A stretch of DNA of 64,000 nucleotides, taken from NCBI RefSeq assembly GCF_905115235.1, contig NC_051850.1:25235010-25299009 (forward strand). The letters run 5' to 3'. Of this stretch, positions 3,223 through 58,961 are shown in pieces. The DNA is from Hermetia illucens. Its lineage: Eukaryota; Arthropoda; Insecta; Diptera; Stratiomyidae. Position 1 is the first letter of the stretch; each line of letters begins with the position of its first letter. The position numbers and the translations under genes were made by a program. The notes under the pieces were generated by a model that saw nothing but the letters and a program-made list of their open reading frames with translations, did not search any database and was not told the DNA's origin.

Positions 3223-3725
3223 TTAAGCACGTTTCTTCAAGAGAAGAGGACCTCCCAAGCTGTTAAGTCCAAGGGGCAATGAGGCCAACCCTGGAGCGGC
3301 AATAATGTTCTGACCGAGAAGTCCGGAACTAAGACCGATAGGGGCGATTCCAGCAGAAAGTGGGGCAAGAGCTGGAGCAATTGGAGCAGCGGCAAGGGGA
3401 GCAGCAATTGAAGTTCTAAGTACTGGAGCGGAGAGAAGTGGAGCACCGATGGCTGGAGCAGCAATGGAAGCACCAAGAACTGGAGCACCAATTGAAGTAG
3501 CAGTAAGTGGAGCAGCGATACGGGTGGCTAAAACTGGAGCAGCAATTGAAGCACCGAGAACTGGAGGAGCGATTGAAGCACTAAGTAAGGGAGCAGCGGC
3601 AAGTGTTGCAATTGGGCTAGCCGAGGCAGCAGCGATGAGAGCGAGGCTCAAAATAATGAATTTCTGAAATGAAGTTATTTTGAGTAAACCATCCATCCGG
3701 GATAGTTGCATCAATATCTTACCAT
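3223..3725 (-). CDS. Paralogue A: small secreted Ala/Pro/Leu-rich protein
   Basis: Exon 1 contributes only the ATG (3725-3723). A 59-bp intron (3722-3664, GT...AG) is followed by exon 2 (3663-3223), giving about 147 residues. The start MKFIILSLALIAAASA is a classic signal peptide. The mature chain is built from APxLGASI-like units and contains no Cys. It ends in the family module PLSAGIAPIGLSSGLLGQN, then IIAAPGLASLPLG and a terminal LLLKKRA. A minus-strand AATAAA lies at 3180-3175. An open frame running through the intron to 3795 is not the likely start, because the splice sites and ATG position match eight paralogues. Ala/Pro-rich secreted chains and an intron in the signal peptide fit insect cuticle-type proteins, but this is inference; the function is unknown. 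Confidence 0.85.
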
Positions 3726-3767
3726 TTTGATAAGTCTTGTAAGTTTCTTCCTTCGCAGCAAAACGTA

Positions 3768-3838
3768 ACTGATACCGTTTCTCTCGATAACGCACTATTT
3801 ATACGCAAAATTTTGATCTAGATATGTCTCAACTAGTT
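3768..3838 (-). promoter_or_regulatory. Core promoter of paralogue A
   Basis: On the minus strand TATAAATA (3803-3796) precedes an arthropod-type initiator TCAGT (3772-3768) with 33 bp from the first T of the box to the presumed +1 A (3770). A palindromic AACTAGTT (3838-3831) lies 35 bp upstream of the box and fits the CNNG form bound by Grainyhead/CP2 factors. The binding factor is inferred. Confidence 0.7.
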
Positions 3839-3839
3839 T

Positions 3840-4415
3840 GCAATTTACATATAGGCGTTCTCACTGATCACAATGATTCTTATAGAGCGCGAATTTCATC
3901 ATAATATTCTATGTTGTTATGTTGATACATGCTGATTTGTATGCTTGGATAAAGTGTGTATATTCACGAAAATGTTGGCGAGAAATTCGAAGTTGTTGGA
4001 AGTAAATTTCCTGATATAGAAAACATGCAACTTCATCACTGAAGATATTATATAGATATAGATAAAGCCATTATTCTTTCCACTGTTGACTAGATGCGTG
4101 AGAATGGTTTAGATTTTCAAATTAATGATTGATGAGATTTTTATTACACCTATTTGTTATGAATGCGGAGATTTAGAGATATTTTCTATGGTTTTAATTG
4201 AGGTTCAACTATGTACGTATTGAACATAATATGTCGTTCAGTAAACTTATTGAAAAAATATAATTTCAAAATACTAAGCTAAGGAATTTGCCTGTTGTGA
4301 CCTTTCAATAGGAACAGTAGCCCAAGATCTCTTCGTAATCATAAAATGAGACAGTTTGGGAATCTTATCTTCTATACTCTAGGGAAAGGGATTGTGAAGG
4401 ACAGGGGATAGGCCG
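3840..4415. other. 5' flank of paralogue A, no gene
   Basis: A-T-rich sequence sharing scattered blocks with the upstream regions of paralogues B, C and D, for example a GCGTGAGAA...TTTTCAAATT segment near 4095-4120. It probably holds upstream regulatory sequence. No reading frame is supported. Confidence 0.4.
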
Positions 4416-4521
4416 TGGGGGTGGCGACATGTGCAAAGGACTACTCAAACTTGACTTATCGAAGAGACGGTAATGACGTTTATAGGAAAGGAGAATTTAG
4501 GGAAAGGAAGGAAGTGTTTTC

Positions 4522-6010
4522 TCATCATCATCATCATCATCAACGGTCTAGGCCTGTCTTAATAAGAAACTCCAGACATCCCGGTTTTGCGCTGAGGTCC
4601 ACCAATTCGATATCCCTAAAAGGTATCTGGCGTCCTGGCCCACGCTATGGCTCCATCACAGGCAGGGTCTGCCTCGTCTTCTTTTTCTACCATAGATATT
4701 GCCCTTATAGACTTTCCAGGTCGGGTCATCCTCATCAATGTGGATTAAGTGACCCGCCCACCGCAACCTATTGAGCCGGAATTTGTTTACATCTTAACGG
4801 TCATGGTATCGCTCATAAATGTCGTCGTTATGTAGGCAACGGAATGGACCATCCTCATGTAGGGGACCAAAAATTCTTCGGAGGATTCTTCTCTCGAACG
4901 CGGCCAAGAGTTCGCAATTATTCTTGCTAAGAACCCAAGTCTCCGAGAAATGCATTAGGACTGGCAAGATCATAGTCTTGTACAGTAAGAGCTTTGACCC
5001 TATGGTGAGACGTTTCGAGCGGAACAGTTTTTGTAAGTCGAAATAGGCTTTGCTGGCTGTCAATAATCGTACACGAATTTCATAGTCGTAGCTGTTATTG
5101 GTTGTGATTTTCGACCCTAGATAGGAGAAATTACCAACGACCTCAAAGTTGTAGTCTCCTATCTTTATTCTTCCCGTTTGACCAGTGCAGTTTGATTTGG
5201 TGCTGACGTTGTCACACCCAAGATCTCACACCGCCTGTATGATCTGGATGAAGGCAGTTTGTACGTCTCGGGTGGTTCTTCCCATGATGTCGATATCGTC
5301 AGCATAGGCCAGTAGTTGGGTGGACTTAAAGAGGATCGTACCTCTTGCTTTTACCTCAGCATCACAGATCATTTTCTCGAGGGCCAGGTTAAAGAGGACG
5401 CATGATAGGGCATCCTCTTGTCGTAGACCGTTGTGGATGTCGAATGGTCTTGAGAGTGATTCTGCTGCTTTTATCTGGCTTCGGAAATTTTTCAGGGTAG
5501 GCCTAGTCAGCCTTATCAATTTCGTCTGAATACCGAATTCTCTCATGGCCGTGCATAGTTTTACCCTGGCTATGCTATCATAGGCGGCTTTAAGGTTGTT
5601 GTAAATATGGGGCAACTTAAATAGTAGATATTGTCTGCTATTTGTAGTCTAGCGTAAATTTGATTCACCGGTAGCTTACACCAAACTACAATTTTTATTT
5701 TTCAGTGTAGATATATATTTCGGGAACAATTTACTCCCTTCATCAGTACAAAGCTACCGTAGCTTTGGCCTGGTGAACTGATGTCCATATTCCAACAGAT
5801 TTTTCGTCGCTTGCCGCACAGAGAAAATCTGATATATTGCTGATTTGCCTGAACTGAAGCCTCTTTGGCATGGGTCAATGATATTCTGGGCGTATGGGGC
5901 TATGCAGCCTAGCAAGATATTATGTATGAGACAGGTTATTCCTCTTTGCCAGTCATCAGGCATTGACTCACTCTCCCTCATCTTGAGCACAAGTTGATGT
6001 ACCACTTGGG
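4522..6010 (-). mobile_element. RTE-like LINE relic (RT to 3' tail)
   Basis: On the minus strand, 6005-5768 encodes an RT N-terminal region with CQRGFSSGKSAIYQIFSVRQ. From 5605 to 5226 follow LKAAYDSI, GLRQEDALSCVLFNLALEK and LLAYADDIDIMGRT (the YADD catalytic box). From 5063 to 4794 comes the C-terminal SETWVLSKNN / RRILRRIFGP region, and near 4760-4640 LRWAGHL...DDPTWKV. The 3' end is a TGA/GAT trinucleotide run (TCA on the plus strand, 4522-4541), as RTE elements often have. The RT is split between about 5608 and 5768 by a hammerhead-bearing insertion. No endonuclease is present, so the copy is 5'-truncated and broken. Confidence 0.75.
5670..5766 (-). ncRNA. Hammerhead-ribozyme-like motif 4, inserted in the RTE relic
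   Basis: On the minus strand TGTA (5750-5747) precedes CTGATGA (5746-5740). A stem II GGGA...TTCC, GAA (5721-5719), an A-T-rich minimal stem III of eight bases, and C (5710) followed by TACA (5709-5706) complete the core. TGTA pairs with TACA as the inner part of stem I, which places an AUC cleavage triplet before 5709. A short palindrome, AAAGCTAC/GTAGCTTT, lies at 5750-5766, and GGTAGCTT recurs at 5670. This is the most convincing hammerhead core in the window. It probably derives from a Penelope-like terminal repeat. Confidence 0.6.
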
Positions 6011-6067
6011 CTTCACACTCTGAGTTTAGTATTAGTAAATGTGAAGAATTTAACCTACAACCGATAT

Positions 6068-10370: not shown

Positions 10371-10373
10371 GGA

Positions 10374-10448: not shown

Positions 10449-10490
10449 GATATTTCGCTTCGAAGAAAGAAACTTACAAAACTTATCAAA

Positions 10491-10979
10491 ATGGTAAAAT
10501 CTATGGGAAATTCCCCCTAAAGGAGTTTTTATTGAAAGATAATTTCATTTCAGAAATTCATTATTTTGAGTCTCGCTCTTATCGCCGCTGCCTCGGCTAG
10601 CCCAATTGCAACACTTGCCGCTGCTCCAGTGCTTGGTGCTTCAATCGCTCCTCCACTTCTTGGTGCTTCAATTGCCGCTCCAGCTTTAGTCACCCGTATC
10701 GCTGCCCCACTTGCTGCTACTTCAATTGCTGCTCCAGTTCTCGGTGCTTCCGTTGCTGCTCCAGCCATCGGTGCTCCACTTCTCTCTGCTCCAGTACTTA
10801 GAACTTCAATCGCTGCTCCAATTGCTCCTGCTCTTGCTCCACTTTCAGCTGGAATCGCTCCTATCGGTCTTAGTTCCGGACTCCTCGGTCAAAATATTAT
10901 TGCCGCTCCAGGATTGGCTTCATTGCCCCTTGGACTTAACAGCTTGGGAGGTCCTCTTCTTTTGAAGAAACGTGCTTAA
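10491..10979 (+). CDS. Paralogue B: small secreted Ala/Pro/Leu-rich protein
   Basis: The ATG (10491-10493) ends exon 1. The intron is 10494-10553, and exon 2 (10554-10979) encodes the rest of about 142 residues. The signal peptide MKFIILSLALIAAASA is identical to that of A, C and D. The mature part carries repeated APxLGASI units, ALVTRIAAP and SAPVLRTSIAAP, then the shared C-terminal module ending LLLKKRA. It lacks the short PLAAA segment before PIAPALAPL that A and C have, which explains its shorter length. AATAAA is at 11019-11024. Its 3' flank matches that of D (opposite strand), and its 5' flank matches that of C. Confidence 0.85.
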
Positions 10980-13640: not shown

Positions 13641-14520
13641 GTATATCTGAACTTATACCACAAATCTGATGAGAAATTGAGCGTTCTTTGAAGTCTCCCA
13701 GGATTTTCACGGAAGGGAGGTGTACATAGCATTATCTTCTAAACCATTTCAGTAAGATTTCACATTACATACTCAACCAAACTACGACAATAAATAAATT
13801 CACTGCCCGTTTTTCAGTGGATCGACTAAAACAGCTCCATAAAGGGATGTGCTACTTAGTTAGATGAACACTACTACTAATGGACATCGAAGCTAAAATG
13901 AAATAATATATAATCAGATACGAAATACAACATTAGGGAAGAAGTGGCGAAAGTTATATAATCGTCGCTTAGTCGTCCCTCCAAGGTAGTAAAACAGGCC
14001 AAACAGCTGAAGGAAGATGCAAATGTAATCAACGACAAAAAAGAAATGATAGGTGAGTAGCGAATAATTAAAATCTTGTGGATACTTCGAATTTAGACAA
14101 ACTCCGCAATATTGTTAACATAGTATGCTGGTCCCAAGCCCAGGTAAAGGAGGAGCGTGCGAGGGAACGCACTTTCTGCTATCCTCAGTAAAACCAAAAT
14201 TAAATGCTGAGATCGGGGAAGAGACAAATAAAGTATAATTGGAGTTATTCCACTATGCTAAATCCTACCTGATCTCTCTTGGTGACAGGCCCCGCGACAG
14301 GCCGGCCAAGAAAATGCATCCAATATCATTAGAAACAATATGATCGGATCGAATAACAAGCCTCGGAAAAATGCTAGCCCGTCCACATTAGTCGACGCGG
14401 CAGGACGGGCCCCGGTTCTGTCAAGAAATGGGCAAGCAGTGATCTGATCTGCCCAGACCTGAGAGATGTAAATACCTCTGGTCAACGCTATCAGCCAATG
14501 GAGAACTGTGTTATGAAATT
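13640..14520. other. No gene recognised
   Basis: No supported reading frame, RNA or repeat is seen. The stretch 13980-14090 has somewhat codon-like composition but no identifiable domain. Confidence 0.3.
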
Positions 14521-16382: not shown

Positions 16383-16886
16383 ATGGTAAGATCCCTAATA
16401 AATTCCCAATAAAAGACTTTTCATTGAAATATAATTTCATTTCAGAAATTCATTATTTTGAGTCTCGCTCTCATCGCTGCTGCCTCAGCTAGCCCAATTG
16501 CAACACTCGCCGCTGCTCCTCTACTTAGTGCCTCAATCGCTCCTCCAGTTCTCGGTGCTTCAATTGCCGCTCCAGTTTTAGCCACTCGTATTGCTGCCCC
16601 ACTTGCTGCTACTTCAATTGGTGCTCCAGTTCTTGGCGCTTCCATTGCTGCTCCAGCCATCGGTGCTCCACTTCTCTCCGCTCCAGTACTTAGAACTTCT
16701 ATTGCTGCTCCTCTTGCCGCTGCTCCAATTGCTCCAGCTCTTGCTCCACTTTCTGCTGGAATCGCTCCTATCGGTCTTAGTTCCGGACTTCTCGGCCAAA
16801 ATATCATTGCCGCTCCAGGATTGGCTTCATTGCCCCTTGGACTCAACAGCCTGGGAGCTCCTCTCCTCTTGAAGAAACGTGCTTAA
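16383..16886 (+). CDS. Paralogue C: small secreted Ala/Pro/Leu-rich protein
   Basis: The ATG (16383-16385) is exon 1 coding. The intron is 16386-16445, and exon 2 (16446-16886) brings the protein to about 147 residues, equal to A. It has the signal peptide MKFIILSLALIAAASA, then SPIATLAAAPLLSASIAPP, VLATRIAAP, SAPVLRTSIAAPLAAAP, and the C-terminal module ending NSLGAPLLLKKRA. C and A are nearly the same protein although they lie 13 kb apart on opposite strands. AATAAA is at 16929-16934. The long antisense open frame here is a by-product of the GCN/CCN-rich codons. Confidence 0.88.
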
Positions 16887-18499: not shown

Positions 18500-20707
18500 T
18501 TAGCCTCTATCCACTCCTACCAGGCAGGGAGTTTCAAAAAGGGTGCGGATTTTAGGTCTGTGGGATGAACTCACGATTTGGCAGGGCCTTAAGAATGTGG
18601 CCAATGGGGAGGTTTTACCCTGTTGGTAGAGATGCCGAATTAATGGGTTGGGGTGGTCCTCCGTTCTTTCGAAGAACCTTTCCATTATTCTGAGAACATG
18701 TTCTCGAAGTGGTTTGACTTTGGCTCGCCTATACACTTCGGCGTTTTTGCCGATCTTTCTGGTTTTCCAGTTGTAAGACAAGTCTGTGCAATGTCTAAGG
18801 ATTCGGCGTTCGAATGACTCGCATTATGCCATGGCTTGGTTGGAGCATGAGATCCAAGTTGGTGCTCCGTAACAGATAACGGGTCTAATCAGGGTCTTAT
18901 ACAGTGTCAGTTTGGTTTTGGTGCTGAGACCTACTGTCTTGCGAAGAAGAGAGTAGATGCCACTGACTGCACCACGTGCCTTGCTGATAGCGAGCTGGAG
19001 GTGGGGTTTGAACTTGAGGAGTTCATGCAGGGTTACTCCCAAGTATTTGATTGAACTAGATCTGCTCACTGTGGTGTTCCCGATTCTCATTTTGAAGCGT
19101 TTAGCTTTCTTGTGGATGCTTCTAGAACCTAAGTATCTAGATTTTCTCCTAAAAGTACAGATTTGCGTTTTTCCCTCGTTTATCTTGATTCCCCAACTAC
19201 GGTGGTACCTGCAGAGAATTACAATGTAGTTCTCAACCGATTTGGCTGCCCTGTTGGGGTGGAGGTTTGAAGCGAAGATAAGCGTATCGTCGGCGAATTG
19301 GATGAGGTCAACGCCATCATCGGGGATCGGAATGTCAGCCGTGAAGATGTTGTAGAATGTTGGCCCAGAAATGGATCCTTGCGGTACACCCGACGTTACC
19401 GGCAAGAGATCGGAGAATTCATTCCCCACGCTGACATAAAAGTGCCTATCTTCGAAGAAACTTAGCGCAAGTCTAATTATCGGGACTGGGAATTCATTGT
19501 CTATTAATTTGTATATAAGTCCGTTTATCCACACGGAGTCGAAGGCCTTTTCTAAATCTAACGCACATGCTACTGTGGGTTTGTTGTTGACATTAAGTCT
19601 TGAGACAACAGTGTCGTGAAGGTAGCTCAGTGCGTGCTGGGTTCCGTGTTTGGAGCGGAATCCGAACTGGTGGTCAGGGATAATTTTGTTGAGGTTGCAG
19701 TGCTGGACTAGCCCAACTGTCCATGCTTTCTCAAACAGTTTGCCAAGGTTGGATAATAGAGAAATGGGCCTGAAATTGCTTGGCTCACTGGAAATGCCTT
19801 TTTTACGAATCGCAATTATTTTTACAACTTTCCACGTGGATGAAAAGTAGCCATTATTAATACAGTTGTTGAAAACTGCTAATAGGAATTTCAATGAGGC
19901 TCTGGGCAGATTCTTTATTGCAAAGTTCGGGATTTCATCAGGCCCGGCTGACCTTTTACCGTTGAGGTTTTGGGTTAAGTCGGTGAGTTGTGGTAAACTC
20001 AGAAAATGTTGCGATTCCGTTGGTTTAACTGAGGTGTTGGTTGTGGTGAATTTAGTGAGTTTCTGGGAGTTCTCAGAGACGAAGGCCTTGATTGTTGAAT
20101 CAACAATCGCTGATATAGCCGGGTTGTTTTGAGGCGGAGGGGAATTGAGCTGAGTTTCAAAAGATTCCGCGAGAACTTGCGCTTTCCTAGCATCACTGCA
20201 AATGTGCTCCCCGTTCTTGTAGAGAGCGATATTACGGGATTTGTGTCTGCCGGTTAGCCTGTTGATATGCTGAAACATATCTGGGCCGGGCTTAATATCT
20301 GCTAGTTTCCTTGTTAGTTCTTTGTTGCGGAAAATCGCCACTCTTTGCCGAATTATTGTACTCAGACAATTAATCCGGGAATGTAATGCTTTATACTCAG
20401 CATTAACTTTATTTCCGTGTTTGTGGAAAATCCGTTTGAGTTGCCTACGCCATATTTGCCTGACTTTCAAGTGGAGCATGATATCGTGAGGGACTGAGTT
20501 ATATTGTAACTCCTTAACTTTGATAAGCCTTGTGTTTCTGCGTGTAGCAGTATTAATGGCATCAGTGGCCAAGGTGATGGCTTCGTCGATCTCTATGTCC
20601 GATAGATTGCGGTCAGTTGCGAGTTTCTTCAAGTTCAGCCTTGGTGCAAGGTCTGACTTGAATTTGTCCCAGTCAGTGTGGGCGAAGGACCTTACGGTGG
20701 TCATCAC
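18500..20707 (-). pseudogene. LINE ORF2 C-terminus: reverse transcriptase
   Basis: Continuous frame 20707-18827 (about 627 residues), then a TAA at 18826-18824, then about 100 more residues in the same frame to 18500. It contains GPDEIPNFAIKNLP, NFRPISLLSNLGKLFEK, VACALDLEKAFDSVWINGL, TSGVPQGSISGPTFY and QFADDTLIFASN (FADD catalytic box, about residue 470), followed by LGVTL and LIRPVICYGAP of the thumb. The C-terminal extension, rich in basic residues, has no RNase H. The two in-frame stops noted here and at 20708 make it inactive as it stands. Confidence 0.8.
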
Positions 20708-21378
20708 TCACTTTCGCAGTTGGGAGGACGAGGAAAGTTTAAGTAGTACTGCGAGATGGTCAGACATGCCTGGTAAAGTAGTGCACGATATCACTTGAAA
20801 GTTCTGTGAAGTTTCCTCCGAAAGGAGGAAGTAATCAATGGTTGATTGACTACTGGGTCTTGTCGGAGAGTCTGGCAAGACCAAATCGACATAGGCTGGC
20901 GAGCAAGGGTCTTGGATCCATTTAAGCAGGGTTTCCCCATTTTTATTTACTGCCATATCGCCCCAGGAGGTGTGCCTAGAGTTGAAGTCGCCACCGAAAA
21001 TGAGGTACTTGTATTTTAACTGGAGATTGCCCAAGATCTTAAGATCTTGTCCCAGTTGCTCATTCCGAGAGTTGCATTTGATGTAGACGGAAACTACCAA
21101 AATCCGTCTACCATCAGTGGTTTTTACTATTGCCGCCGCGGCGGAAGAGGTCAGCAGGTTTTCAATGACGACTTCCTCAAATTCATAGCCTTTCCTGACT
21201 AAAAGGGCAGCGCCAGTGTTGTTGTGATTCCGGATAATATTATACCCGGTGAATTGCACGTTATGCCGGTGAATTGCACGTTATCTGCTTTCAGATTGTT
21301 AATCAACACTTGGGCTGTGGCACGTTGGACGTGTGAGATCAGGGACGCGGAGTTAAAGGTGACGATATTTAACTCCAT
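20708..21378 (-). pseudogene. LINE ORF2 N-terminus: APE-type endonuclease
   Basis: The best start is the ATG at 21378, which overlaps the ORF1 stop (the TAA at 21371-21369 is read in another frame). MELNIVTFNSASLISHVQRA is the usual EN opening. A 20-bp direct duplication (about 21246-21285) shifts the frame. From 21259 the domain continues with YLIFGGDFNSRHTSWGD (catalytic Asp/Asn) and MSDHLAVLLKL (catalytic Asp-His) and ends at TGA 20710-20708. The RT follows in the same frame. Confidence 0.75.
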
Positions 21379-22500
21379 AAATTCATAATGAGTTTTATAG
21401 CGGCGAATTGCCGCTGCTCATTAGTTGAGGCCGACGCGATAGATTGCACCAATTCGCGGAAAGCATTTGGTGCGGGGATGGGAGCAGGTTGTGCTGCCAC
21501 TCTTGGTTGAGTGTTTCTGGTAGCTTGAGCGTACGATACGCTGGAATTGATCAAGCTTTGTGACAGTTGTATCACTGTGCGCTTGACTTGGGAGCTTTCA
21601 TTGGGTCGCTTTTGTTTGGCAGAGGGCTCCAAAGTCGCGATGAACTATCCCGATTGCGATTTCATCGGGAGGGCCGGATTTTCGCTATGCAGAAACTTGT
21701 CTCTGCGCGTAACCAGGTTCGCAACTGTCTTTAGTTGGAAATCTGGGTGCTCTGTTTTTAGTTCTTCCAGGATGTCCACGGGGTCCGTTTCCCTGTGGAG
21801 TCCGCGGATAACTACAGACTGGGTGCGAAGGGAGGGAGGTGTCCTAGTGGTAGCATTAAGCCCCTGTTCTTTTAAAAGCGCGAAGACCTTCCCGTGATCT
21901 TCCGCCGTTTCAGTCCTGTCAGCCCTCGTATTTTTAAGGGACGCTTTTAGCCCCTTATTTTTCAGGAGTTTTAGAAAAGAGGGTACGTTTAAACCGTACC
22001 CAGTTATAGCGGGGACTTGGACTTGGTAGGTTGGGTGCTTGGGGGGGGGGGTAGCCTGTTTAGGAGCGGTTACAGTTTTTACACTAACCTTTATCTTGTT
22101 ACGTTTCCTCCTCCGCACGAAGTTGAACGGGTCACCTTCGTCGTTGACTTCGGGGTTTGGTGATGGTGATGTGTCCATCTCGCACTCTTCGTTGACTCTT
22201 GTTGAGTCCTCTATTGCTGCTGGTGCTCCCCCGCTGTCGATGACGATCGGTTCACGACTATTTCTTGCTACACTGGTTCGCACCGCCTCTTGTAGCGCTG
22301 CTACCTCCTGTTTTAGCTGAATTATCAGCTGTTGTTGGCAGTTGCTGTGCGAGGGCTGCTTTCTCGCCTCTGAGCTCTTCAAGCTCCTTCCTCAGCGGGT
22401 AGTCGTAATTTTCTGAGGGGCCCGTGCTCCCCTCCTCCTCAGATGATAGCTCCCCAGGGAGTGCCATTTTAGACCTCTTGGCGGACATTATTGCCCCCAA
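21369..22500 (-). pseudogene. LINE ORF1 (Gag-like), broken
   Basis: The start MGAIMSAKRSKMALPG (22500) leads into a coiled region (LRKELEELRGEKAALAQQL). A shift to another frame follows near 22340, where IQLKQEVAALQEAV continues the coil. Next come VIDSGG, RRRKRNKIKV (basic), PPPKHPTYQVQVPAITGYG and the RNA-recognition-like TQSVVIRGLHRETDPVDIL...NLVTRRDKF. At about 21645 the frame ends, and 21632-21369 supplies the usual C-terminal SYAQATRN / FRELVQSI region. The CCHC zinc knuckles expected between these are absent, so a deletion is likely. Its stop overlaps the ORF2 start. Confidence 0.7.
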
Positions 22501-23225: not shown

Positions 23226-24159
23226 TTTATCGCCTTAAAAAACGTAAGCACTAACGAGACAAATTTCCAATCATCAACTCCATAGGCGTGGCCCGGTAAA
23301 AGAGCATAAGAATTTCGTTGGACATACACACCTGGTTTGTGCGAAAAGAGATCCGCAAACAAACTCTCCCTAGAGTTAAATTTACTGAGTCTCTACGAAA
23401 ATCCTGAAAAGTGCCCCCTGTATCAACAACATTGCTAGTAATCATTAGGATCTTTTCATCAGCTGTTCCGTTACAACATCAATATTCTTCAATTTGAAGA
23501 AGCAACAGATCCTACTACATATCCTATAACAGATTTAACAAGTGGAGTTCCTCACTAAGTTTAGCAAAAGGGAACCTCACCCAATGAAGAGCTTTAGCTT
23601 CGTTCTCTACAGAAGAGTAGTGGTCAAAAAACCTCATAATTGGATAAAAAAATGGAAACTGCTAACAATTCGGCCACGAGGAATTCTACTTTCGTCCATA
23701 ACATTCGTGTAGAGCCAGCCATGACCTAATCCACCGACAATTGATGGGACGATTCAACCAACGAAATCTGTAAAGGCAAACATACAGCCAACTACAAGGA
23801 ATCATGTCCACCAGGCCATCAGTAAAAAATTCAACAACAACACAAGGCCCGCTCATGGCGGATTAATAACGCAACCATAGCCACTCCCCCATAGACCCAC
23901 CTCATCAATCACTCACTAAATATACACAAGCCAAACATATACCGATATTCTGTGACCCTCTCAGCCCGACCACCCTCTACAAAATCCAAATCCTAATGGC
24001 TCTAACAAAAACATTCTGCACCTCGTAGTGGTCAAAGGGTAGTATCGCTCCCAAGGTGAAACGTGGATTGGTACCCACGATGGAGCATAAAACTTGGGAA
24101 ACGCCTGGTGAACTAACACCAACAGCTCTACTACCAAACCCTATCTTCACCTCCACGTG

Positions 24160-25930
24160 GTGACCGCTGGGAGTTCTTTCTTAACGAAAAGCTGCAGACG
24201 GAGAAGGATGAAGGCGAGTCTCCCGCGCCTAAAAACGGGACAAATTGTACCAGCTGGTCCTTCAGGTTGGGGGTTGGGTAGGGCTGACAACCCTATATGG
24301 AAAATAACTTGTTACGAAGCCATAACAGGAGCCTCGGACTGGACTGATGATACAACGACGAACCCGGCAATGACAAAGGAATAACGATTTGCGCATTTTC
24401 TGATGGAACGTACGCTTCCTGTACAGAGATGGAGCTGCCAAGCAGTTAGCCGATACCCTGTCCCAATATAAGGGTGATGTAACAGCGTTACCGGAGATGC
24501 GTTGGACAGGCACCAGTTTCCTAGAGAAGAGTCGCTACACCATATATTATAGCGGCCATCCAGTAAACCATGTGCTCGGAGTAGGTTTCTTAGTCAGCCA
24601 AAAAATGAAACCAGATGTTATCGGCTCTGAAAACCTAAGCGAACAGCTTTGCATTCTGCACTTCCGAGGCAAATTTAAAAATATAAGCCTCACTAACGTT
24701 CACGACCTTACAGAGGAGACTGTAGAGTTGGAGAAGGAGACCTTCTACGAGGTAGTAGAACGAACCCTCAAAGCCTGTCCTAGATATGATATCAAATTCA
24801 TTCTTGGGAATTTTAACAGCCAAGTAGGCACAAAACCCGTATTCAACTGACTACGTATTGAGCAAACGCCGCCACCATCAGAACGTATAAAGGGGTCAAT
24901 AAAGACTCGGATCGCTATCCTGTTGGCATAATGCTCCGAGCTCGTTCAATCAGGTGAGAGTTAACACTGAAGGCATCCACAACACAGCCCTCCGCAACAC
25001 TTATAAGAGGGAAATGGATGCCGCAATAACCGCAGTCAACAGAGGTCCTGGAGATGAAACATCAACAAATGATCTTCACAATCACCTGAAGAACGTTATC
25101 GTAAATACGGCCACAAACATACTTGGCCTCAGCCGGAAAAAGAGTCGGAACGGCGTGATGATTTCACGATAAATGTAAGCTAGCAACGGAACGGAAGAAC
25201 GGTGCATACCAAGTAATGTTGCATTCTCAAAGAACGCGGGCTCACGCGGCGACTTATCACGAATTGCAGCGAGCGGAGAAAAGTACAGGGAGCAACCGCA
25301 CCAAGAGCCGAAGTTTTACCAATAAGTCAGCAGGAAGAAGCCTTACACATCTGGATGCTGATCGTACTGAGACAAAGAGGGAAATCTATCTGGGTATTTA
25401 CTTTCAATTAAATTGATAGGTCATTGCCATTTTTCAACCTAAGTGAACATTAGAAGACATTACTGGCCAATATAGACTGGCATCACTATCTCGTTGATAT
25501 AGAACTCCGAGCTGAAATAACAACACCACCCTAAATTGCTTTTGCCAAAACGCAAAAGTCATCCCTAAAAAATTTTCCGTAAAATCTGCAAGCAAAATGA
25601 GGGCCACAATAATCGAATCTAGTAGATACTCTGAGCATGAAACATCCGCAATGAACTTTACAACCACCTGAACAACGTTATTATTAATAAAGAATGAAAT
25701 ATGTATATTTGGCTCCATTAACGAGAAAAGATCCAACCGATAATTACGATGATTACTGTAAGCTTGTAATGGAAGTAAGTGTGCTGCTTACCGAACAATC
25801 TAGCAATATCAAAGATTGGGCGCACGCGCAGGGACTTACTAGGAAGCCGTGAGTGGAGAAGCATTTTTACAAACAGGAAAAGGAAGGCTCGGCAAGGAGC
25901 AACCACACCAGAGCAGTAGTTTGTAATGAA
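24160..25930 (+). mobile_element. RTE-type LINE relic with APE endonuclease (family b)
   Basis: The 5' region (24180-24500) leads into MRWTGTSFLEKSRYTIYYSG, then GVGFLVSQKMK, RGKFKNISLTNVHDLTEE (usual form INVHAPTEE) and YDIKFILGNFNSQVG (usual form LGDFNAQVG). Two catalytic-site residues therefore look altered. After a gap the linker to the RT appears twice: 24955-25300 (TALRNTYKREMDAAI, NHLKNVIVNTATNILGLSRKKSRNG) and, more decayed, 25660-25870. The duplicate may reflect a second insertion of the same family. No RT core is present. Confidence 0.7.
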
Positions 25931-30199: not shown

Positions 30200-30688
30200 T
30201 TAAGCACGTTTCTTCAAAAGAAGAGGACCTCCCAAGCTGTTAAGTCCTAGGGGCAACGAAGCCAATCCTGGAGCGGCAATAATATTTTGACCGAGAAGTC
30301 CGGAACTAAGACCGATAGGAGCGATTCCAGCAGAAAGTGGAGAAAGAGCTGAAGCAAGTGGAGCAGCAATTGAAGTTCTAAGTACTGGAGCGGAGAGAAG
30401 TGGAGCACCGATGACTGGAGCAGCAATGGAAGCACCAAGAACTGGAGCAGCAATTGAAGTAGCAGCAAGTGGGGCAGCAATACGGGTGGCTAAAGCTGGA
30501 GCGCCAATTGAAGCACCAAGAAGTGGAGGAGCAATTGAGGCACCAAGTAGAGGAGAAGCGGCAAGTGTTGCAATTGGGCTAGCTGAGGCAGCGGCAATAA
30601 GAGCAAGACTCAAAATAATGAATTTCTGAAATGAAATTATCTTTCAATAAAAGGTCCTTTATTAGGAATTTATTAGGGATTTTACAAT
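30200..30688 (-). pseudogene. Paralogue D: secreted Ala/Pro/Leu-rich protein gene lacking its ATG
   Basis: Exon 2 (30625-30200) is fully open and encodes KFIILSLALIAAASASPIATL, APxLGASI-like units, SAPVLRTSIAAPLASALSPL and the C-terminal module ending NSLGGPLLLKKRA. With a start it would be about 142 residues. The intron (30685-30626) keeps a GT donor and an AG acceptor. The triplet that is ATG in all eight other copies is ATT here (30688-30686), and exon 2 has no in-frame Met. The TATA box and initiator are intact. Either D is a very young pseudogene or it uses a non-AUG start, or the base is an assembly or allelic difference. Its 3' flank matches that of B in inverted orientation. Minus-strand AATAAA is at 30157-30152. 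Confidence 0.75.
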
Positions 30689-36677: not shown

Positions 36678-36747
36678 TACCGGTTATGCTGTATCAGTAT
36701 AAGAACTTTTGTATAAATAGTGCGTTAAGGAAGTCGACGTTATCAGT
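36678..36747 (+). promoter_or_regulatory. Core promoter of paralogue E
   Basis: TACCGGTT (36678-36685, one base off AACCGGTT), TATAAATA (36712-36719) and TCAGT (36743-36747), with spacing of 33 bp to +1 A at 36745. Just upstream is the block GAGCACCGCGTAGGCAAATT, shared with F and G. Confidence 0.75.
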
Positions 36748-36787: not shown

Positions 36788-37194
36788 AAATGGTGAGGAC
36801 CTCAAAAAACTTCTAAGGAACTATATTACTGAACTAAAACTATCTTTTTCAGAAATTCGTAGTATTGAGCCTTGCTCTTATCGCCGCTGCCTCAGCTACC
36901 CCAATTGCTACACTCGCCGCTGGTCCAGCTCTTGGTGGTATTTTGGCTCCCGGAATTGCCAGTCCACTTCTTGGTGCATCAATTGCTGCTCCACTTGGTG
37001 CCACCATTGGTGCTCCTCTTCTAGCTCCACGACTTGCTGCTGCTCCAATTGCTCCACTTTCAGCTGGAATTGCTCCAATTGGTCTCAGTTCTGGACTCCT
37101 TGGTCAAAATATTATTGCTGCTCCAGGTTTGGCTTCATTGCCTCTTGGACTTAATGGCTTGGGAGCTCCTCTTCTTTTGAAGAAACGTGCTTAA
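36788..37194 (+). CDS. Paralogue E: small secreted Ala/Pro/Leu-rich protein
   Basis: ATG (36788-36790), intron 36791-36852, exon 2 36853-37194, about 114 residues. The signal peptide is MKFVVLSLALIAAASA. The mature chain TPIATLAAGPALGGILAPG, ...LLGASIAAPLGATIGAPLLA, PRLAAAPIAP leads into the common module PLSAGIAPIGLSSGLLGQN and the terminal LLLKKRA. It belongs to the shorter subfamily E/F/G, which lacks the VLRTSIAAP segment. It differs from G by one residue (Val instead of Ile at position 5 or its neighbour in the signal peptide). AATAAA is at 37237-37242. The 3' flank carries an env-like fossil also present behind F. Confidence 0.88.
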
Positions 37195-42903: not shown

Positions 42904-42973
42904 AACCGGTTACGACAAATCAGTATAAGAACTTTTGTATAAATAGTGCGAGATTTAAATAGATGGTATCAGT
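42904..42973 (+). promoter_or_regulatory. Core promoter of paralogue F
   Basis: AACCGGTT (42904-42911, perfect Grainyhead-type site), TATAAATA (42938-42945) and TCAGT (42969-42973), with the presumed +1 A at 42971. The upstream block GAGCACCGCGTACGCAAATT is shared with E and G. Confidence 0.78.
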
Positions 42974-43015: not shown

Positions 43016-43420
43016 ATGGTAAGGACTTCCATGGAGATCTAAGGAAAAACATTACTAAACTAAAATATTTTTTTTCAGAAATTCGTAATTTTGAGCCTTG
43101 CTCTCATCGCTGCTGCCTCAGCTACCCCAATTGCTACACTCGCCGCTGGTCCAGCTCTTGGTGGAATTTTGGCACCCGGAATTGCCAGTCCACTTCTTGG
43201 TGCGTCAATTGCTGCGCCACTTGGTGCCACCATTGGTGCTCCTCTTCTAGCTCCACGACTTGCTGCTGCTCCAATTGCTCCACTTTCAGCTGGAATTGCT
43301 CCAATTGGTCTCAGTTCTGGACTCCTTGGTCAAAATATTATTGCTGCTCCAGGTTTGGCTTCATTGCCTCTTGGGCTTGATGGCTTGGGAGCTCCTCTTC
43401 TTTTGAAGAAACGTGCTTAA
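43016..43420 (+). CDS. Paralogue F: small secreted Ala/Pro/Leu-rich protein
   Basis: ATG (43016-43018), intron 43019-43078, exon 2 43079-43420, about 114 residues. The signal peptide is MKFVILSLALIAAASA. The mature chain is like E and G except that GLNGLG near the end is GLDGLG here. AATAAA is at 43462-43467. A longer open frame starting at 42946 with ATG reads through the leader and intron in another frame; it is rejected because it shares nothing with the family. The upstream 500 bp are closely similar to those of G. Confidence 0.88.
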
Positions 43421-43935: not shown

Positions 43936-45385
43936 GTCATGCAGGAAAATAAAGATTGGGTGGATTATTTGCAGAATAAGGCGAAGGGTAGTTCCAAGTG
44001 CTGGGTCTACGAACATATATCAGGCACTTGCAAGGAGCAGCACTGAAGCAATTTGTGTTACAAGTGTGGCGAATGCGGGCACAAAGCGAAGACTTGTGAT
44101 TTTGTTCTTCAAGCAAGAGCTACAAAGTCAAGCACTATGGTTCACATCCCTCAAGCAGACATGCATAAGAGTACAACTGTTCACAACCTGATGGGGAAGC
44201 TGGTGTAAGAAAGAAAAGTTGACTTGTTGCTTCTCAGCAAACAGAACCGAGATAGGAGCTCACCATCGTGAATGCTGATATATCTGGCACTACTTCCATC
44301 TGGGTGAGAGACACGGTTAGTTTGCAAGTCCTTTGTGTCAGTGGTTTAACAATGGAAGGCATTGGAAAATTTCACTTGCTAATGTTCGGCAGTCCAATCA
44401 GGAGGAGCATCGGGAAGATCGACGCAGCAAAATTTTTCGAAGCTCTCCTAAGAGGGGTAAATCAGCGACAAGACCTTGGCACAGATAGAAGAACTGCAAC
44501 TGAATCGTTAGTTCTATCAAAAATCGGCCTTATTACCGCAGTTTGTAATGCATCGGCTACCAAAAGAAAACTGCCTCCCGGGCCAGGTATACGCTGGTTA
44601 TTAGACAAGGGGTAACCTCCTCCAAACTACATTTTTTTTCAATATAAGTATATATTTCGGGAGCAACTTACCTCCTTCATCAGTCCAAACTACCTAGCTA
44701 AGCAGCTTTGTACTGATGAAGGAGGTAAGTTGCTCCCGAAATATATATTTACATTGGAGTACTTAGTTACGTTTACTCTTCACTGTAAAGGACCAAGGGG
44801 GGGTGGTCCTGTCCACGAAGGACAAAAAAGCGTCAGGACCGGACGGTATTCCCAATGAACTGTTGAAACTCGTATCTAAATACAAGCCGGACTTGCTACT
44901 CAGCACATTCAATGCATGTTTGGCAGCGGGTGTTTTTCCCTCCCACTTGAAGGTTGCGAGGCTTTTCTGTTCTATTCTGATAAACAAGGGCAAAGGCGAC
45001 CCGCATCGTCCATTCAGTATGTTGGACATAGCGGGAAAGCTGTTTGAGAAGCTCATCAAGCTGGGACTGAGATAATATGTGTTGCGGGAGACTATTTACC
45101 AAAACAATATGGTTTTAGAGCGGGACGATCCAAAATTGTTGCCATTGAGGAAGTGGTCCAAGCGTTAAACCTGGTTAAGGCACACAGTCGGCGATCTGTG
45201 CTGCTTGTGCCCCTCGACGGGGGGACAAAAGTAACATCTACACTTGCACCTTTGGAACGCCTCATACGTAACTACTCCACCCAGGATATTCCACCAAATG
45301 CAGAGCATGAGCTTCGAGGAATGGATGTTTTACGAGAATTCCTGGTCCATGTACTTTCAACTCGGTTGTAACGGTTGACCCTTAG
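43936..45385 (+). mobile_element. R1-like LINE relic (ORF1 zinc knuckles, EN and RT pieces)
   Basis: At 43990-44100 lie two to three CCHC knuckles (KCWVYEHISGTCK, then LCYKCGECGHKAKTC), the end of an R1-type ORF1. From about 44215 follow endonuclease remnants (LLLLSEQNRDRSSPSW-like, DISGTTSIWVRD) and ITAVCNASATKRKL before the RT. At 44800-45070 come RT blocks KKASGPDGIPNELLKLV, LPSHLK-like and INKGKGDPHRPFSMLDIAGKLFEKLI, then NQYGFRAGRS and IEEVVQALNLVKAHSRR to about 45230. The catalytic YADD region is lost. A hammerhead-bearing piece is inserted at 44612-44765. Confidence 0.65.
44649..44753. ncRNA. Back-to-back hammerhead-like motifs 5 and 6
   Basis: Minus copy: CTGATGA at 44683-44677 and GAA at 44658-44656. 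Plus copy: TGTA (44709-44712), CTGATGA (44713-44719), stem II GGAG...CTCC, GAA (44738-44740), a minimal A-T stem III, then TACA (44750-44753) pairing with TGTA. The arms 44651-44684 and 44712-44745 are a perfect 34-bp inverted repeat around a 27-bp spacer. The structure lies within an insertion into the R1-like relic. It matches motif 4 closely and probably stems from inverted Penelope-like terminal repeats. Confidence 0.6.
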
Positions 45386-48215: not shown

Positions 48216-48623
48216 ATGGTAAGGACTTCCAAGGAGATATTAGGAGCTACATTACTAAACTAAACAATTTTTTTTTTTCAGAAATTCGTAATTTTGAGCC
48301 TTGCTCTTATCGCCGCTGCCTCAGCTACCCCAATTGCTACACTCGCCGCTGGTCCAGCTCTTGGTGGAATTTTGGCTCCCGGAATTGCCAGTCCACTTCT
48401 TGGTGCATCAATTGCTGCTCCACTTGGTGCCACCATTGGTGCTCCTCTTCTAGCTCCACGACTTGCTGCTGCTCCAATTGCTCCACTTTCAGCTGGAATT
48501 GCTCCAATCGGACTTAGCTCTGGTCTCCTCGGTCAAAATATTATTGCTGCTCCAGGTTTGGCTTCATTGCCTCTTGGACTTAATGGCTTGGGAGCTCCTC
48601 TTCTTTTGAAGAAACGTGCTTAA
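48216..48623 (+). CDS. Paralogue G: small secreted Ala/Pro/Leu-rich protein
   Basis: ATG (48216-48218), intron 48219-48281, exon 2 48282-48623, about 114 residues. The product is like E apart from one residue in the signal peptide. At the DNA level exon 2 is nearly identical to E, except for six synonymous differences packed into 48509-48530, which suggests gene conversion from another copy. AATAAA is at 48667-48672. Confidence 0.88.
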
Positions 48624-50354: not shown

Positions 50355-51367
50355 TTAGGCTGTTGCACATGAAATTACCGTTTTGGCAATCAAGTGAAGT
50401 TAGTTGCGATTTTCCTGTATTAAACCACCACCAGTTGGCGCTGTTGGTGTCGGATAATGAAGTATAAATACTCCTACATTTAATCAAGGAGTCATTTTAG
50501 TTTTGACCATCGTTGTGGAAACAGTGAACAAAAAGGAAAAAAAAAGGATAAAAAAGAGCCAAGAACGTATATTTTTTCTGTATGAGCTCAAACTCGGTCA
50601 TAAAGCAGTGGAGGTGACCAGGAACATTAACAGCGCATTTGGAGCTGATACGGTAAGCGAACGAACCACATGGCACATTGCAGTTCTTTACTCTCCTGCA
50701 ACAGAAGCGATTTTTACAAAGAATAGTGACATGTGCTGAAAAGTGGATATTATACGACAATCGTCGCCGATCAGCACAATGGCTAGATGCTGATGAGCCA
50801 TCGAAGCATATGCCGAAACCGAGCCTCCATTCGAAGAAGGTAATGGTGACTGTTTGGTGGTCTACAGCTGGAGTTATCCACTATTCTTTTTTGGCACCTG
50901 GAGAAACGATAAATGCACAAAAATACTTTGCCCAACTCGAGAGAATGCACCACAAATTGAGTATTCACCGGCCGAGATTAGTCAACAGAGAGGGTGTGAT
51001 ACTCCTTCACGACAATGCACGACCTAATGTTTCCAGAGCAACGGTTCAAAAGTTGAACGAATTGCAGAATGAGACTCTGCCTCATCCACCATACTCACCG
51101 GACCTTTCGCCAATCGACTATCACTTTTTTAAACATTTGGATCATTTTTTGGCCGAAAAACAATTTAGGAATGAAGAGGCTGTCAAAATTGCCTTCAACG
51201 AATTTATCAACCTCCGACAATTGGACTTCTATGAAACTGGCATACATGCTCTTGAATCTCACTGGGGAAGTGCTTTGAATCGACTGGCACCTATTTTGAT
51301 TGAATAAATAAATTTTTGTAAGCTTTACAGTCGTTTGAAATTTGCCATTTCATTTGCAACAACATAA
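50355..51367 (+). mobile_element. Mariner (cecropia/Hsmar1-like) DNA transposon, internally deleted
   Basis: Terminal inverted repeats start TTAGGCTGTTGCACATGAAA on the left (50355) and TTATGTTGTTGCAAATGAAA read inward from the right (51367). TA dinucleotides flank both ends (50353-50354 and 51368-51369), as for all Tc1/mariner insertions. At about 1.01 kb it is shorter than the usual 1.3 kb because part of the transposase gene is missing. Confidence 0.85.
50503..51307 (+). pseudogene. Mariner transposase, broken
   Basis: The N-terminal piece (50563-50670) IFFLYELKLGHKAVEVTRN, then INSAFGADTVSERT is the first helix-turn-helix. About 300 bp of the gene (second helix-turn-helix and linker) are then missing, and from 50678 another frame runs 209 codons to 51307. 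That frame has TCAEKWILYDNRRRSAQWLD, VMVTVWWSTAGVIHYSFL, LLHDNARPNV and YSPDLSPIDYHFFKHLD. The second and third catalytic aspartates keep the D34D spacing, but the first (usual TCDEKW) is Ala, so even this part would be inactive. It is similar in style to the human SETMAR transposase domain but is not a host gene. Confidence 0.85.
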
Positions 51368-51369
51368 TA

Positions 51370-52475: not shown

Positions 52476-52479
52476 TAGA

Positions 52480-54770: not shown

Positions 54771-54779
54771 AACACCGTG

Positions 54780-55445: not shown

Positions 55446-55885
55446 CGATATTGTAAATCAATCGATGTCCCGCTTAATGCAAAGTGAGCTTTCCGTATCC
55501 TACAAAGAGATTCTGGTTCTAAACGGGGCCGGTAAGAAGTCGTTAAAATTATTTTATAATTTCTTTTAAATAAGGTTCAGATATTAAATAAATTAATTAC
55601 AATTACTGTGATACTGGGTGGAAGATTTTAATTGTAGCTTAATGAGAGATAGTTTTGATGGGTATGAGTCCCATAACCTCGGCGTTCGACAGCTCGAGGG
55701 CCAGTTTTGAAGGCTTTTATCTCAATTTTAATTAATTTGATTTGATTTGAATGCTTAATTAAAGTTGACAAAAAAACTATAGTACCGAAAATCAACCCAT
55801 GAAATAAAGTGTCCGATCAAAAAACACCGCAATGGAAAAATGCGAGAGAAGTTTAATAAAAGATGTTTGATGAGTTACCACAGAA
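55445..55885. other. No gene recognised
   Basis: A-T-rich DNA (TTTAATTAATTTGATTTGAT near 55728) with no frame or repeat assigned. Confidence 0.4.
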
Positions 55886-55888
55886 AAA

Positions 55889-56643
55889 ACAAGTCGGGAA
55901 ACCGGAAGCTAGACGCTTCAGGTATGAAAGGTTTTGTGTATTTATTTTATAAAGAGATTTGGGTGTGCATTTGCCTCATTAGCATGTAGCACGTAAAATA
56001 TGCATATATTATGTGAAAATAGCCACTTTCAAGTGATATTGACATTCATAGTCTTGAATTTGCAGAGAAGCGCAGATTTCACCTAGTATAACTTTGTTAG
56101 TAATAGTGCGATTTTCACTAAATTTGGTAGGATCATGATTTATACTGTAGCCTATTATGCTTCAAAATTTTGTGATTCTAGGGTGAACTTAAGGGGGGTT
56201 TTCCTGTCAATTACTAAAAATTATTTTAATATACTATTATTAACTTTATTTGAACAGGTATCAATATGGAGGGTATTTCGGAGCCTAGGCACTATATAGT
56301 GGCAGCCCCCTGATTTTTTCCAGATTTTTCGGTTGGGTAGTTCCTGAGAACGGGTTCGTTGAAAAAATGACCACTTTCAACCCCCCGCACTCCCCACCTT
56401 TTCAGCAAAAGTCAAAACTAATACCGGCTTTGAAAAGTACCAACGGAGACCTTTAATTTGATACCCCACATGACTATATTTGATGAAAAAAAAATTTGCA
56501 CCCCCCTTTTGCATGTATAGGGACCCCCCCTTAAATTTGTCGTAAGAGGATGTAACTCACTATATGCGTGAGCGTTCATAGTTCCCACCTTTCTACCAAA
56601 TTTGGTGTCAATCGCTATAACCGTCTCCGAGAAAAATGCGTGT

Positions 56644-56690
<47 letters not shown>

Positions 56691-56757
56691 GGACAGACAG
56701 ACAGACAGTAAACCGATTTTAATAAGGTTTTGTTTTACAAACAAAACCTTAAAAAGA
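55889..56757 (+). repeat. Unnamed interspersed repeat, complete copy 5
   Basis: An element of about 870 bp from ACAAGTCGGGAAACCGGAAG to a perfect 12-bp terminal hairpin, AAGGTTTTGTTT (56724-56735) / AAACAAAACCTT (56739-56750), followed by AAAAA. Internally it has an AACTTAAGGGGGGTTTTCC block, a TGCATGTATAGGGACCCCCC block and a long ACAG microsatellite just before GATTTTAATAAGG. No terminal inverted repeats or target duplication are evident. This layout recalls Helitron-like DINE/HINE elements, but no family name is certain. Confidence 0.65.
56644..56710 (+). repeat. (GACA)n microsatellite
   Basis: About sixteen ACAG/GACA units with two GACG interruptions, located inside repeat copy 5. Shorter tracts sit at the same point in copies 1-4. 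Confidence 0.9.
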
Positions 56758-56977
56758 TAATGCACGGCCTTATTCTCAAGGTTGTTGCTTACAAACTTTT
56801 CGATCCCTTTCTAATTGACGCTCTTCATTCTAAGCTTCTCACTTTCTCGTTTTAATATAGTTAGTATATGACGAAATCCTCTTCATTTTGAACATCATTA
56901 TCGCACTTTCTCAGCACTGAAGGATTAACTTTAACGAGTTCGTAGTCGTAAATGGAGCACCATATATGCAAATTCAC

Positions 56978-57047
56978 AACCGGTCGGATTGTATTAGAAG
57001 CAGAACTTGCGTATAAATAGAGCACTGTCGAAGGAAAGGGTATCAGT
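56978..57047 (+). promoter_or_regulatory. Core promoter of paralogue H
   Basis: AACCGGTC (56978-56985, one base off), TATAAATA (57012-57019) and TCAGT (57043-57047), with spacing of 33 bp to +1 A at 57045. Confidence 0.75.
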
Positions 57048-57089
57048 TTCACATCGTTTCGCATGAAAGAACTACCAAATTCTACCAAG

Positions 57090-57544
57090 ATGGTATGAAC
57101 TTGAGAAGATATTTAAAATATCTTATTATTAAAAAGGAGCATAAACTTTTCTTCCAGAAATTCGTAATTTTGAGCCTCGCTCTTATCGCCGCTGCTTCAG
57201 CCAACCCAATTGGACCACTTGTGGCTGCTCCAGGTGGTGTACTCGCTACTCCTGCAATTGGCGCTACACTTGCTCCAGCTCTCTCTGCCCGTATTGCTAC
57301 TCCACTTGGTGCTACGATCGGTGCTCCCCTCCTGTCTGCTCCAGTAGTTAGAACTTCTATCGTTACCCCAATTGCCGCTGCTTCAATTGCTCCTGCTCTG
57401 GCTCCACTTTCGGCTGGCATCGCTCCTATCGGTCTTCGTTCTGGCCTTCTCGGTCAAAACATCATTGCAGCTCCAGGTTTGGCTCCATTGCCCCTTGGAC
57501 TCAATGGCTTGGGAGCTCCTCTTCTTTTGAAAAAACGGGCTTAG
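57090..57544 (+). CDS. Paralogue H: small secreted Ala/Pro/Leu-rich protein
   Basis: ATG (57090-57092), intron 57093-57157 (GTATGA donor), exon 2 57158-57544 ending in TAG, about 129 residues. The signal peptide is MKFVILSLALIAAASA. The mature chain NPIGPLVAAPGGVLATPAIG, ATLAPALSARIATPLGATIG, SAPVVRTSIVTPIAAASIAP leads to the shared C-terminal module (here IGLRSGLLGQN) and LLLKKRA. It mixes features of the A-D group (VRTSI segment) and the E-G group (LGATIGAPLL). The open frame starting at 57095 lies in the intron and is not the start. AATAAA is at 57590-57595. Confidence 0.85.
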
Positions 57545-57599
57545 AATGTTTGTGTAATTTTAGAAAATAAGCATCAGATATTTTGGTAAAATAAACCAA

Positions 57600-58060
57600 A
57601 TTGTATTTAGAAAAGAATGAGTTCTCGCTGAATTCACAACTAGTAATGAACTAACTGTTTGGATCGTCAACGGTCTTGAAAGTTCATAAGCAATGGAAAC
57701 TAGTCTTAGAATAAATAACTCTAATTCTTGAGGAATGAATAATACACGATAGTGCCCTAACCCATTTAGTTTAGCCATTGGGAGGGCGCCAGTTTGGGAA
57801 ATCTATAGTCAAAAAGTTAATTAACTTTTCCAACATAATTTTTTGCAGAGTAATTGCAGAAAACTGCCCATTATGAAACCTACCCAGAAATCTTCATAAA
57901 CAAAAACAGAAAAAAGATGAAATTTCTATACCGATTTTGCATCATGTTAGAGGCTGAAAGTTTTTTTGGACCCATGAAAATTGGCCTCACAAAAAGTAAC
58001 ATGATGTAATTTCCCCCTCGCGATCGTCATTATAAGCAATTTTGCACCTTCAAGGTTTTG
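57600..58060. other. Spacer between paralogues H and I
   Basis: About 0.5 kb of A-T-rich DNA with no frame or repeat. It is the only spacer in the array apparently free of transposon debris. Confidence 0.4.
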
Positions 58061-58103
58061 ATTTTGGACCAATTTTTAATCGAATAACCATATGCAAATC
58101 CAC

Positions 58104-58173
58104 AGTTGGTTCATTGCAATCAAATCTAAATTTTATGTATAAATAGTGTGTCCCTGCAGCCAATGGTATCAAT
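58104..58173 (+). promoter_or_regulatory. Core promoter of paralogue I
   Basis: TATAAATA (58138-58145), initiator TCAAT (58169-58173, less typical), +1 A at 58171 with 33-bp spacing. At the position of the AACNNGTT motif only the right half remains (AGTTGGTT, 58104-58111). Confidence 0.65.
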
Positions 58174-58214
58174 TCAGTTTCGCTTCGAACAAAGACACTC
58201 AAAAAACTATCAAA

Positions 58215-58961
58215 ATGGTAAGCTTAGATAAATATCCGAAGAATACGATACTAGAAAATATATTTATTTTTCAGAAATTCATGATTGTGAGCCTTGCTCT
58301 TATCGGCACTGCCTCAGCCAGTATTGTTTCCTTAGGCGCTTCATCAGGTCTTGGTGGTGTCCTGGCTTCTCCCGCTATTGGTGCTACTCTTGCTCCAGCT
58401 CTTGCCACCGGAATTGCTGCTACTTCAATTGGCAGTCCACTCCTTGGTGCATCAATTGCTGCTCCAGCCCTCAGTCCACTTTCAGCTGGTCTTGCTCCTA
58501 TTGGTCTCAGTTCCGGTCTTCTCAGCCAAAAACTTATTGCATCACCACTTTCGGCTGGTATTGCTCCTATTGGTCTCAGTTCCGGTCTTATCAGCCAAAA
58601 ACTTATTGCATCACCACTTTCAGCTGGCATTGCTCCTATTGGCCTCAGTTCCGGTCTTATCAGCCAAAAACTTATTGCATCACCACTTTCAGCAGGCATT
58701 GCTCCTATTGGTCTCAGTTCCGGTCTTATCAGCCAAAAACTTATTGCATCACCACTTTCAGCAGGCATTGCTCCTCTTGGTCTTAGCTCCGGGCTTCTAG
58801 GTCAAAAACTTATTGCATCACCACTTTCAGCTGGCATTGCTCCTCTTGGTCTTAGCTCCGGGCTTCTTGGTCAAAAAGTTATTGCAGCTCCAGGTTTAGC
58901 TTCCCTGCCTCTTGGACTTAAAGGATTGGAATCACCTCTCCTTTGGAAGAAACGTGCTTAA
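58215..58961 (+). CDS. Paralogue I: expanded secreted protein with 23-residue repeats
   Basis: ATG (58215-58217), intron 58218-58274, exon 2 58275-58961, about 229 residues, the longest family member. The signal peptide is MKFMIVSLALIGTASA. An Ala/Gly-rich head (VLASPAIGATLAPALATGIA, LLGASIAAPALS) is followed by six tandem copies of SPLSAGIAPIGLSSGLISQK-LIA-type modules (58473-58886). The end is APGLASLPLGLKGLESPLLW with KKRA. The repeat unit equals the C-terminal module that the other paralogues have once, with Asn-Ile replaced by Lys-Leu or Lys-Val after the Gln. AATAAA is at 59005-59010. The 165-codon antisense frame is a reflection of the repeats. Confidence 0.88.
   Translation: MVSLDKYPKNTILENIFIFQKFMIVSLALIGTASASIVSLGASSGLGGVLASPAIGATLAPALATGIAATSIGSPLLGASIAAPALSPLSAGLAPIGLSSGLLSQKLIASPLSAGIAPIGLSSGLISQKLIASPLSAGIAPIGLSSGLISQKLIASPLSAGIAPIGLSSGLISQKLIASPLSAGIAPLGLSSGLLGQKLIASPLSAGIAPLGLSSGLLGQKVIAAPGLASLPLGLKGLESPLLWKKRA
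58473..58886 (+). repeat. Six 69-bp tandem repeats within paralogue I
   Basis: Exact period of 69 bp, so the frame is kept. Copies 2-4 are nearly identical (IGLSSGLISQKLIA). Copies 5 and 6 read LGLSSGLLGQK. Copy 1 reads GLAPIGLSSGLLSQ. The last copy is the original-like one, because it flows into APGLASLPLG as in the other genes. Confidence 0.9.

Follow-up and report, generated by a model that had tools for sequence, protein, structure and literature searches.

Nine paralogous genes for secreted, low-complexity proteins lie between positions 3223 and 58961 of the window, the whole 64-kb stretch of DNA that was analysed. More probably than not, the array encodes a lineage-restricted, apidermin-like family of hydrophobic proteins with a structural role in the apical extracellular matrix (the cuticle, or the lining of trachea, gut or ducts).

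Organisation of the gene array

A script was used to rebuild each of the nine genes independently, and the outer limits given in the earlier note proved to be the stop codons of g1 (3223) and g9 (58961). The single gene design that it had described holds throughout, except that g4 has lost its ATG and the lengths are not uniform. In each gene a leader of 48-49 nt precedes a first exon whose last codon is the ATG itself (ATT in g4); the intron that follows is in phase 0 and 57-65 nt long, and a single exon holds the rest of the coding sequence. The intron 3' end and exon 2 join as CAG/AAATTC in all nine, and AATAAA lies 39-45 nt 3' of the stop codon. In the list below, the core promoter is given by its start (by its full extent for g6) and the module is the 46-residue C-terminal module (PLSAGIAP...LLLKKRA).

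g1: 3223..3725, minus strand; core promoter 3803; ATG 3725-3723, intron 3722-3664, exon 2 3663-3223; module 3226..3363; 147 aa
g2: 10491..10979, plus strand; core promoter 10413; ATG 10491-10493, intron 10494-10553, exon 2 10554-10979; module 10839-10976; 142 aa
g3: 16383..16886, plus strand; core promoter 16305; ATG 16383-16385, intron 16386-16445, exon 2 16446-16886; module 16746-16883; 147 aa
g4: 30200..30688, minus strand; core promoter 30766; ATT 30688-30686, intron 30685-30626, exon 2 30625-30200; module 30203-30340; 142 codons
g5: 36790..37194, plus strand; core promoter 36712; ATG 36790-36792, intron 36793-36852, exon 2 36853-37194; module 37054-37191; 114 aa
g6: 43016..43420, plus strand; core promoter 42938..42973, TATAAATAG to TATCAGT; ATG 43016-43018, intron 43019-43078, exon 2 43079-43420; module 43280-43417; 114 aa
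g7: 48216..48623, plus strand; core promoter 48138; ATG 48216-48218, intron 48219-48281, exon 2 48282-48623; module 48483-48620; 114 aa
g8: 57090..57544, plus strand; core promoter 57012; ATG 57090-57092, intron 57093-57157, exon 2 57158-57544, stop TAG; module 57404-57541; 129 aa
g9: 58215..58961, plus strand; core promoter 58138; ATG 58215-58217, intron 58218-58274, exon 2 58275-58961; module 58821-58958; 229 aa

Protein identity between pairs is 64-99% and blastn matches of copy against copy reach E=0. These values, together with the promoter, leader, splice sites and 3' ends common to all nine, show that the copies are not a chance likeness of low-complexity sequence. A tblastn search with the nine proteins as queries found no tenth intact copy within the window. 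Long open frames antisense to the genes were rejected as by-products of codon composition. The coding tree supports two clades, g1-g4 (142-147 aa) and g5-g7 (114 aa), with g8 (129 aa) and g9 (229 aa) outside them; larger duplicated segments about 5-6 kb apart contain g2/g3 and g5/g6/g7.

The array sits among transposon remnants. Non-LTR retrotransposon ORFs with reverse transcriptase were identified at 18824-22391 (minus strand) and 61413-63572 (plus strand), the latter a 719-aa open frame that includes RNase H, and a mariner-type transposase fragment of 216 aa at 50657-51307 (plus strand; Transposase_1, E 2e-30). A drz-agam-1 (HDV-like) ribozyme at 24129-24207 (plus strand) scores barely above the gathering score. 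An endonuclease-like ORF (24404-24850) begins about 200 nt downstream of it, so the ribozyme probably marks the 5' end of a non-LTR retrotransposon. A type-P1 twister ribozyme match at 14095-14161 (plus strand) has an intact core (GGUCCCAAGCCCAGGUAAAGG) and a mismatched P1; its E value of 2e-9 applies to a short stretch and it falls under the Rfam gathering score. The near-perfect 120-nt inverted repeat at 44637-44759 is matched on both strands by several unrelated miRNA models, all under their cut-offs; a microRNA is less likely here than a short inverted-repeat transposon. Both the transposons and the design of the nine genes have an arthropod character, and introns of 57-65 nt would be in keeping with a fly.

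Protein composition, selection and codon usage

A signal-peptide-like start (MKF..LSLALIAAASA, predicted by eye) is present in all nine proteins, in agreement with the secretion proposed in the earlier note. Its description of a low-complexity chain also stands: cysteine is absent from all nine and aromatic residues from eight, with one Trp in g9. The mature chains have 98-213 residues, of which A/P/L/I/S/G/V make up 86-91% (Ala 16-28%, Leu 18-21%, Pro 9-14%, Gly 8-15%, Ile about 10%, Ser 5-18%), and GRAVY ranges from +0.96 to +1.17. AlphaFold gave no confident structure for the family (mean pLDDT 43, with only the nine close sequences as input), which is consistent with a low-complexity chain.

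As the earlier note had found, the family could not be matched to a named one: the nine proteins have no Pfam match and no credible PDB relative. None has a Pfam match to an RR, ChtBD2 chitin-binding or DUF243 domain (CPR, Tweedle, CPAP), no relatives were found among viral and prokaryotic contigs, and a full-text literature search with peptide strings of the family matched no paper. In the PDB, L-lactate oxidase chains matched the family profile (E 0.002), but no single stretch passes alone and a search with one sequence gave E 0.7; the match was put down to Ala/Pro composition. Two Pfam matches were dismissed as chance: P22_gp7 (E 6-7.5) and Retinin_C (PF04527; E 0.63, 10.8 bits against a cut-off of 22.2, in one protein of the nine).

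Repeats distinguish some of the copies. In g9, six 69-nt tandem repeats (58476..58886, plus strand; 94% matching) encode a 23-residue unit that is a multiplied portion of the C-terminal module, and the protein has a periodicity of 23 (z=21). A looser 27-nt (9-residue) repeat covers the N-terminal two thirds of g1-g4, with period 9 in the g1 and g3 proteins (z about 6). Silks also combine a repetitive chain with a conserved C-terminal module. These features would suit silk-like, glue or accessory-gland secretion proteins, but poly-Ala or GA crystalline blocks are absent and the mature chains are very short for silk, so that such a role appears quite unlikely.

All nine proteins end in KKRA, preceded by LLL (LLW in g9). 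Each mature chain contains 4-6 basic residues (10 in g9), and in seven of the nine acidic residues are absent. The lack of acidic residues and the basic end would be compatible with a role in host defence, in which hydrophobic, cationic proteins attach to microbial walls, by analogy with recombinant honeybee apidermin 2, which has MIC50/IC50 values of about 8-24 uM (PMC9604307). Such a role is nevertheless improbable: a mature chain of about 100-130 residues carries just 4-6 basic ones, and no amphipathic design is evident in the sequence.

Between gene pairs dN/dS is 0.03-0.42, and the C-terminal module (the last 46 residues) is the most constrained part of the proteins. Within g1-g4 it differs by 0-1 amino acid changes at a dS of 0.11-0.31, and between clades by 2-9 changes (dN 0.02-0.11, dS 0.48-0.81). 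Gene conversion was rejected as the cause of the conserved C-terminus because dS in the module is about that of the whole gene; constraint therefore keeps these ends alike. By these sequence comparisons, selection is maintaining the proteins, and the C-terminal module most strongly.

All nine exon-2 frames are uninterrupted. Eight genes clearly have a usable start, while g4, with ATT at 30686-30688 (minus strand) where the others have the exon-1 ATG, lacks a canonical one; there is no Met in its exon 2. Its promoter, splice sites, frame and polyadenylation signal are all intact, and g4 may be a pseudogene that lost its start recently, may use a near-cognate start or may contain a sequence error. 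The lost start and the surrounding transposon remnants would fit a decaying array with no current function. With starts, splice sites, frames and polyadenylation signals intact in eight genes and dN/dS well under 1, this is highly improbable.

Codon bias is strong, with GCT at 74% and ATT at 74%; CCA, CTT and GGT are also favoured, and GCG and CCG are absent. The same bias is not present in two transposon ORFs of the window. This usage suggests high expression, although the repetitive chain may contribute to it.

The shared promoter

Each of the nine core promoters consists of TATAAATAG followed, 29 nt on from start to start, by TATCAGT (TATCAAT in g9). The pattern TATAAATA(N15-28)TCA(G/A)T occurs at exactly nine sites on both strands of the 64 kb, one per gene. 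Columns identical in all nine genes account for 42% of positions from the TATA to the ATG, 27% in the 120 nt upstream and 9% farther up, with 11% in the intron interior and 1% in the 3' flank.

Genes for chorion and vitelline proteins are often short, TATA-driven and arranged in clusters, and in chorion genes the first exon is tiny. The array and its composition would suit proteins of this kind, secreted by follicle cells to waterproof the vitelline envelope or chorion with a hydrophobic layer. However, the cross-links typical of eggshells, made by peroxidase or as disulphides, would need Tyr or Cys, and the proteins have neither. None of the nine has an eggshell Pfam domain, and an egg-coat function is considered unlikely.

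Farther upstream, ATGAYGAAAT is found about 165 nt before the start site, with one mismatch in g9. A CATCAT-like sequence lies about 24 nt past it in nearly all copies. Measured from the start site, the two begin at about -168 and -144 (42802 and 42826 in g6, for example), and together they form a putative regulatory element. The promoter block also contains ATG(C/T)AAAT or a close variant, adjoining an AAC(C/T)NGTT-like palindrome. In three genes this palindrome is an exact Grainy head site:

36678-36685: TACCGGTT (ACCGGTT), Grainy head match in the g5 promoter
42904..42911, plus strand: AACCGGTT, perfect Grainy head palindrome in the g6 proximal promoter (site definition PMC3348937)
48104-48111: AACCGGTT, exact Grainy head site in the g7 promoter

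The corresponding sequence is off by at least one base in g1-g4 and g8, and g9 has none. In Drosophila without Grainy head, many cuticle-protein transcripts are reduced (PMC3348937). The sites of g5-g7 would therefore hint at epidermal expression, but these genes are recent duplicates and the sites count as about one observation. Control of all nine genes by Grainy head was rejected as overstated, as the exact sites occur only in g5-g7.

Proposed function and comparison with known cuticular families

The earlier note had derived a structural role from composition, and composition alone would suit eggshell, silk or gland products too. Selection, codon bias, the promoter and the apidermin precedent now also point to such a role; the tissue, the packing of the chain and the role of the C-terminus are ones that we infer, the latter two from composition and conservation. 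A secretory epithelium would transcribe the copies in quantity from one shared TATA/initiator promoter type, and the signal peptide would be cleaved after A-S-A. Hydrophobic contacts could then hold the unstructured A/P/L/I/S/G chains together as a filler or as a layer that repels water, and the conserved KKRA-ending module would make a specific contact and supply the main basic/amine groups through which the chain is anchored. Additional copies would increase dosage, and in g9 the repetition of part of the module would change the length of the chain. With almost no Lys, His, Tyr or Cys, the chains are poorly suited to a matrix that is tanned or linked by disulphides, or to ordinary chitin binding; a hydrophobic filler, coat or lining that packs by itself and is anchored at its conserved end would suit them better. 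Without a chitin-binding domain or aromatic residues, the proteins are not of the usual chitin-matrix kind.

If this role is correct, the array is one more case in which the lining of an arthropod uses a cross-link-poor, water-repelling protein that belongs to none of the named cuticular families, and its natural series (three lengths and an internally expanded copy) suits tests of what chain length and the C-terminal module contribute to assembly. If it is wrong, the array is one more clustered low-complexity family awaiting a name from annotators. A more specific version, in which the apical-matrix family has no relative outside its clade and the KKRA-ending 46-residue module, partly multiplied in g9, is an undescribed assembly or anchoring module, is a doubtful but conceivable case.

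Among described proteins, the CPH or unclassified low-complexity cuticular proteins are a catch-all that shares with the array a secreted low-complexity chain and no domain; membership is assigned via similarity to silkworm sequences (PMC13073896). Like CPLCP (low-complexity, Pro-rich cuticular proteins), the array proteins are secreted and contain 9-14% Pro, but CPLCP have frequent PV and PY pairs, whereas the array has 0-4 such pairs per protein and no Tyr. They are Ala-rich, secreted and of low complexity like CPLCA (low-complexity, Ala-rich cuticular proteins), but lack a retinin domain above the cut-off.

Apidermins, which are hydrophobic, Ala-rich and signal-peptide-bearing, are produced in the epidermis, the trachea and the gut (PMC9604307, PMC12426002) and have so far been reported from Hymenoptera only (PMC9604307, PMC7497268, PMC12426002, PMC13073896). 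Alanine in the array is 16.0-27.5% of the mature and 16.2-27.9% of the full chain, against a criterion of 30% or more (PMC13073896); this criterion varies, about 18% having been accepted elsewhere (PMC7497268). AAPA/V tetrapeptides, an apidermin feature (PMC7497268), number four in g2, two each in g1, g3 and g4, one in g9 and none in g5-g8. RERR, present in APD 1 and 2 (PMC9604307) and not stated for APD 3, occurs in none of the nine. The array also uses Ile and Ser where apidermins use Val, has nine copies against three, and has the conserved C-terminal module. Most of the formal criteria tested for apidermins, CPLCA and CPLCP thus leave it out, and on present evidence it cannot be classed as apidermin. 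Nevertheless, all nine share with apidermins a very hydrophobic, nonpolar-dominated chain behind a signal-peptide-like start. Like APD 1-3 of Apis mellifera they have a signal peptide, are small and highly hydrophobic and lack a recognised domain (PMC9604307, PMC7497268), with Ala the top residue in most copies and Gly, Leu and Pro abundant. Judged by descriptions in the literature, these likenesses make the apidermins the closest kind described so far.
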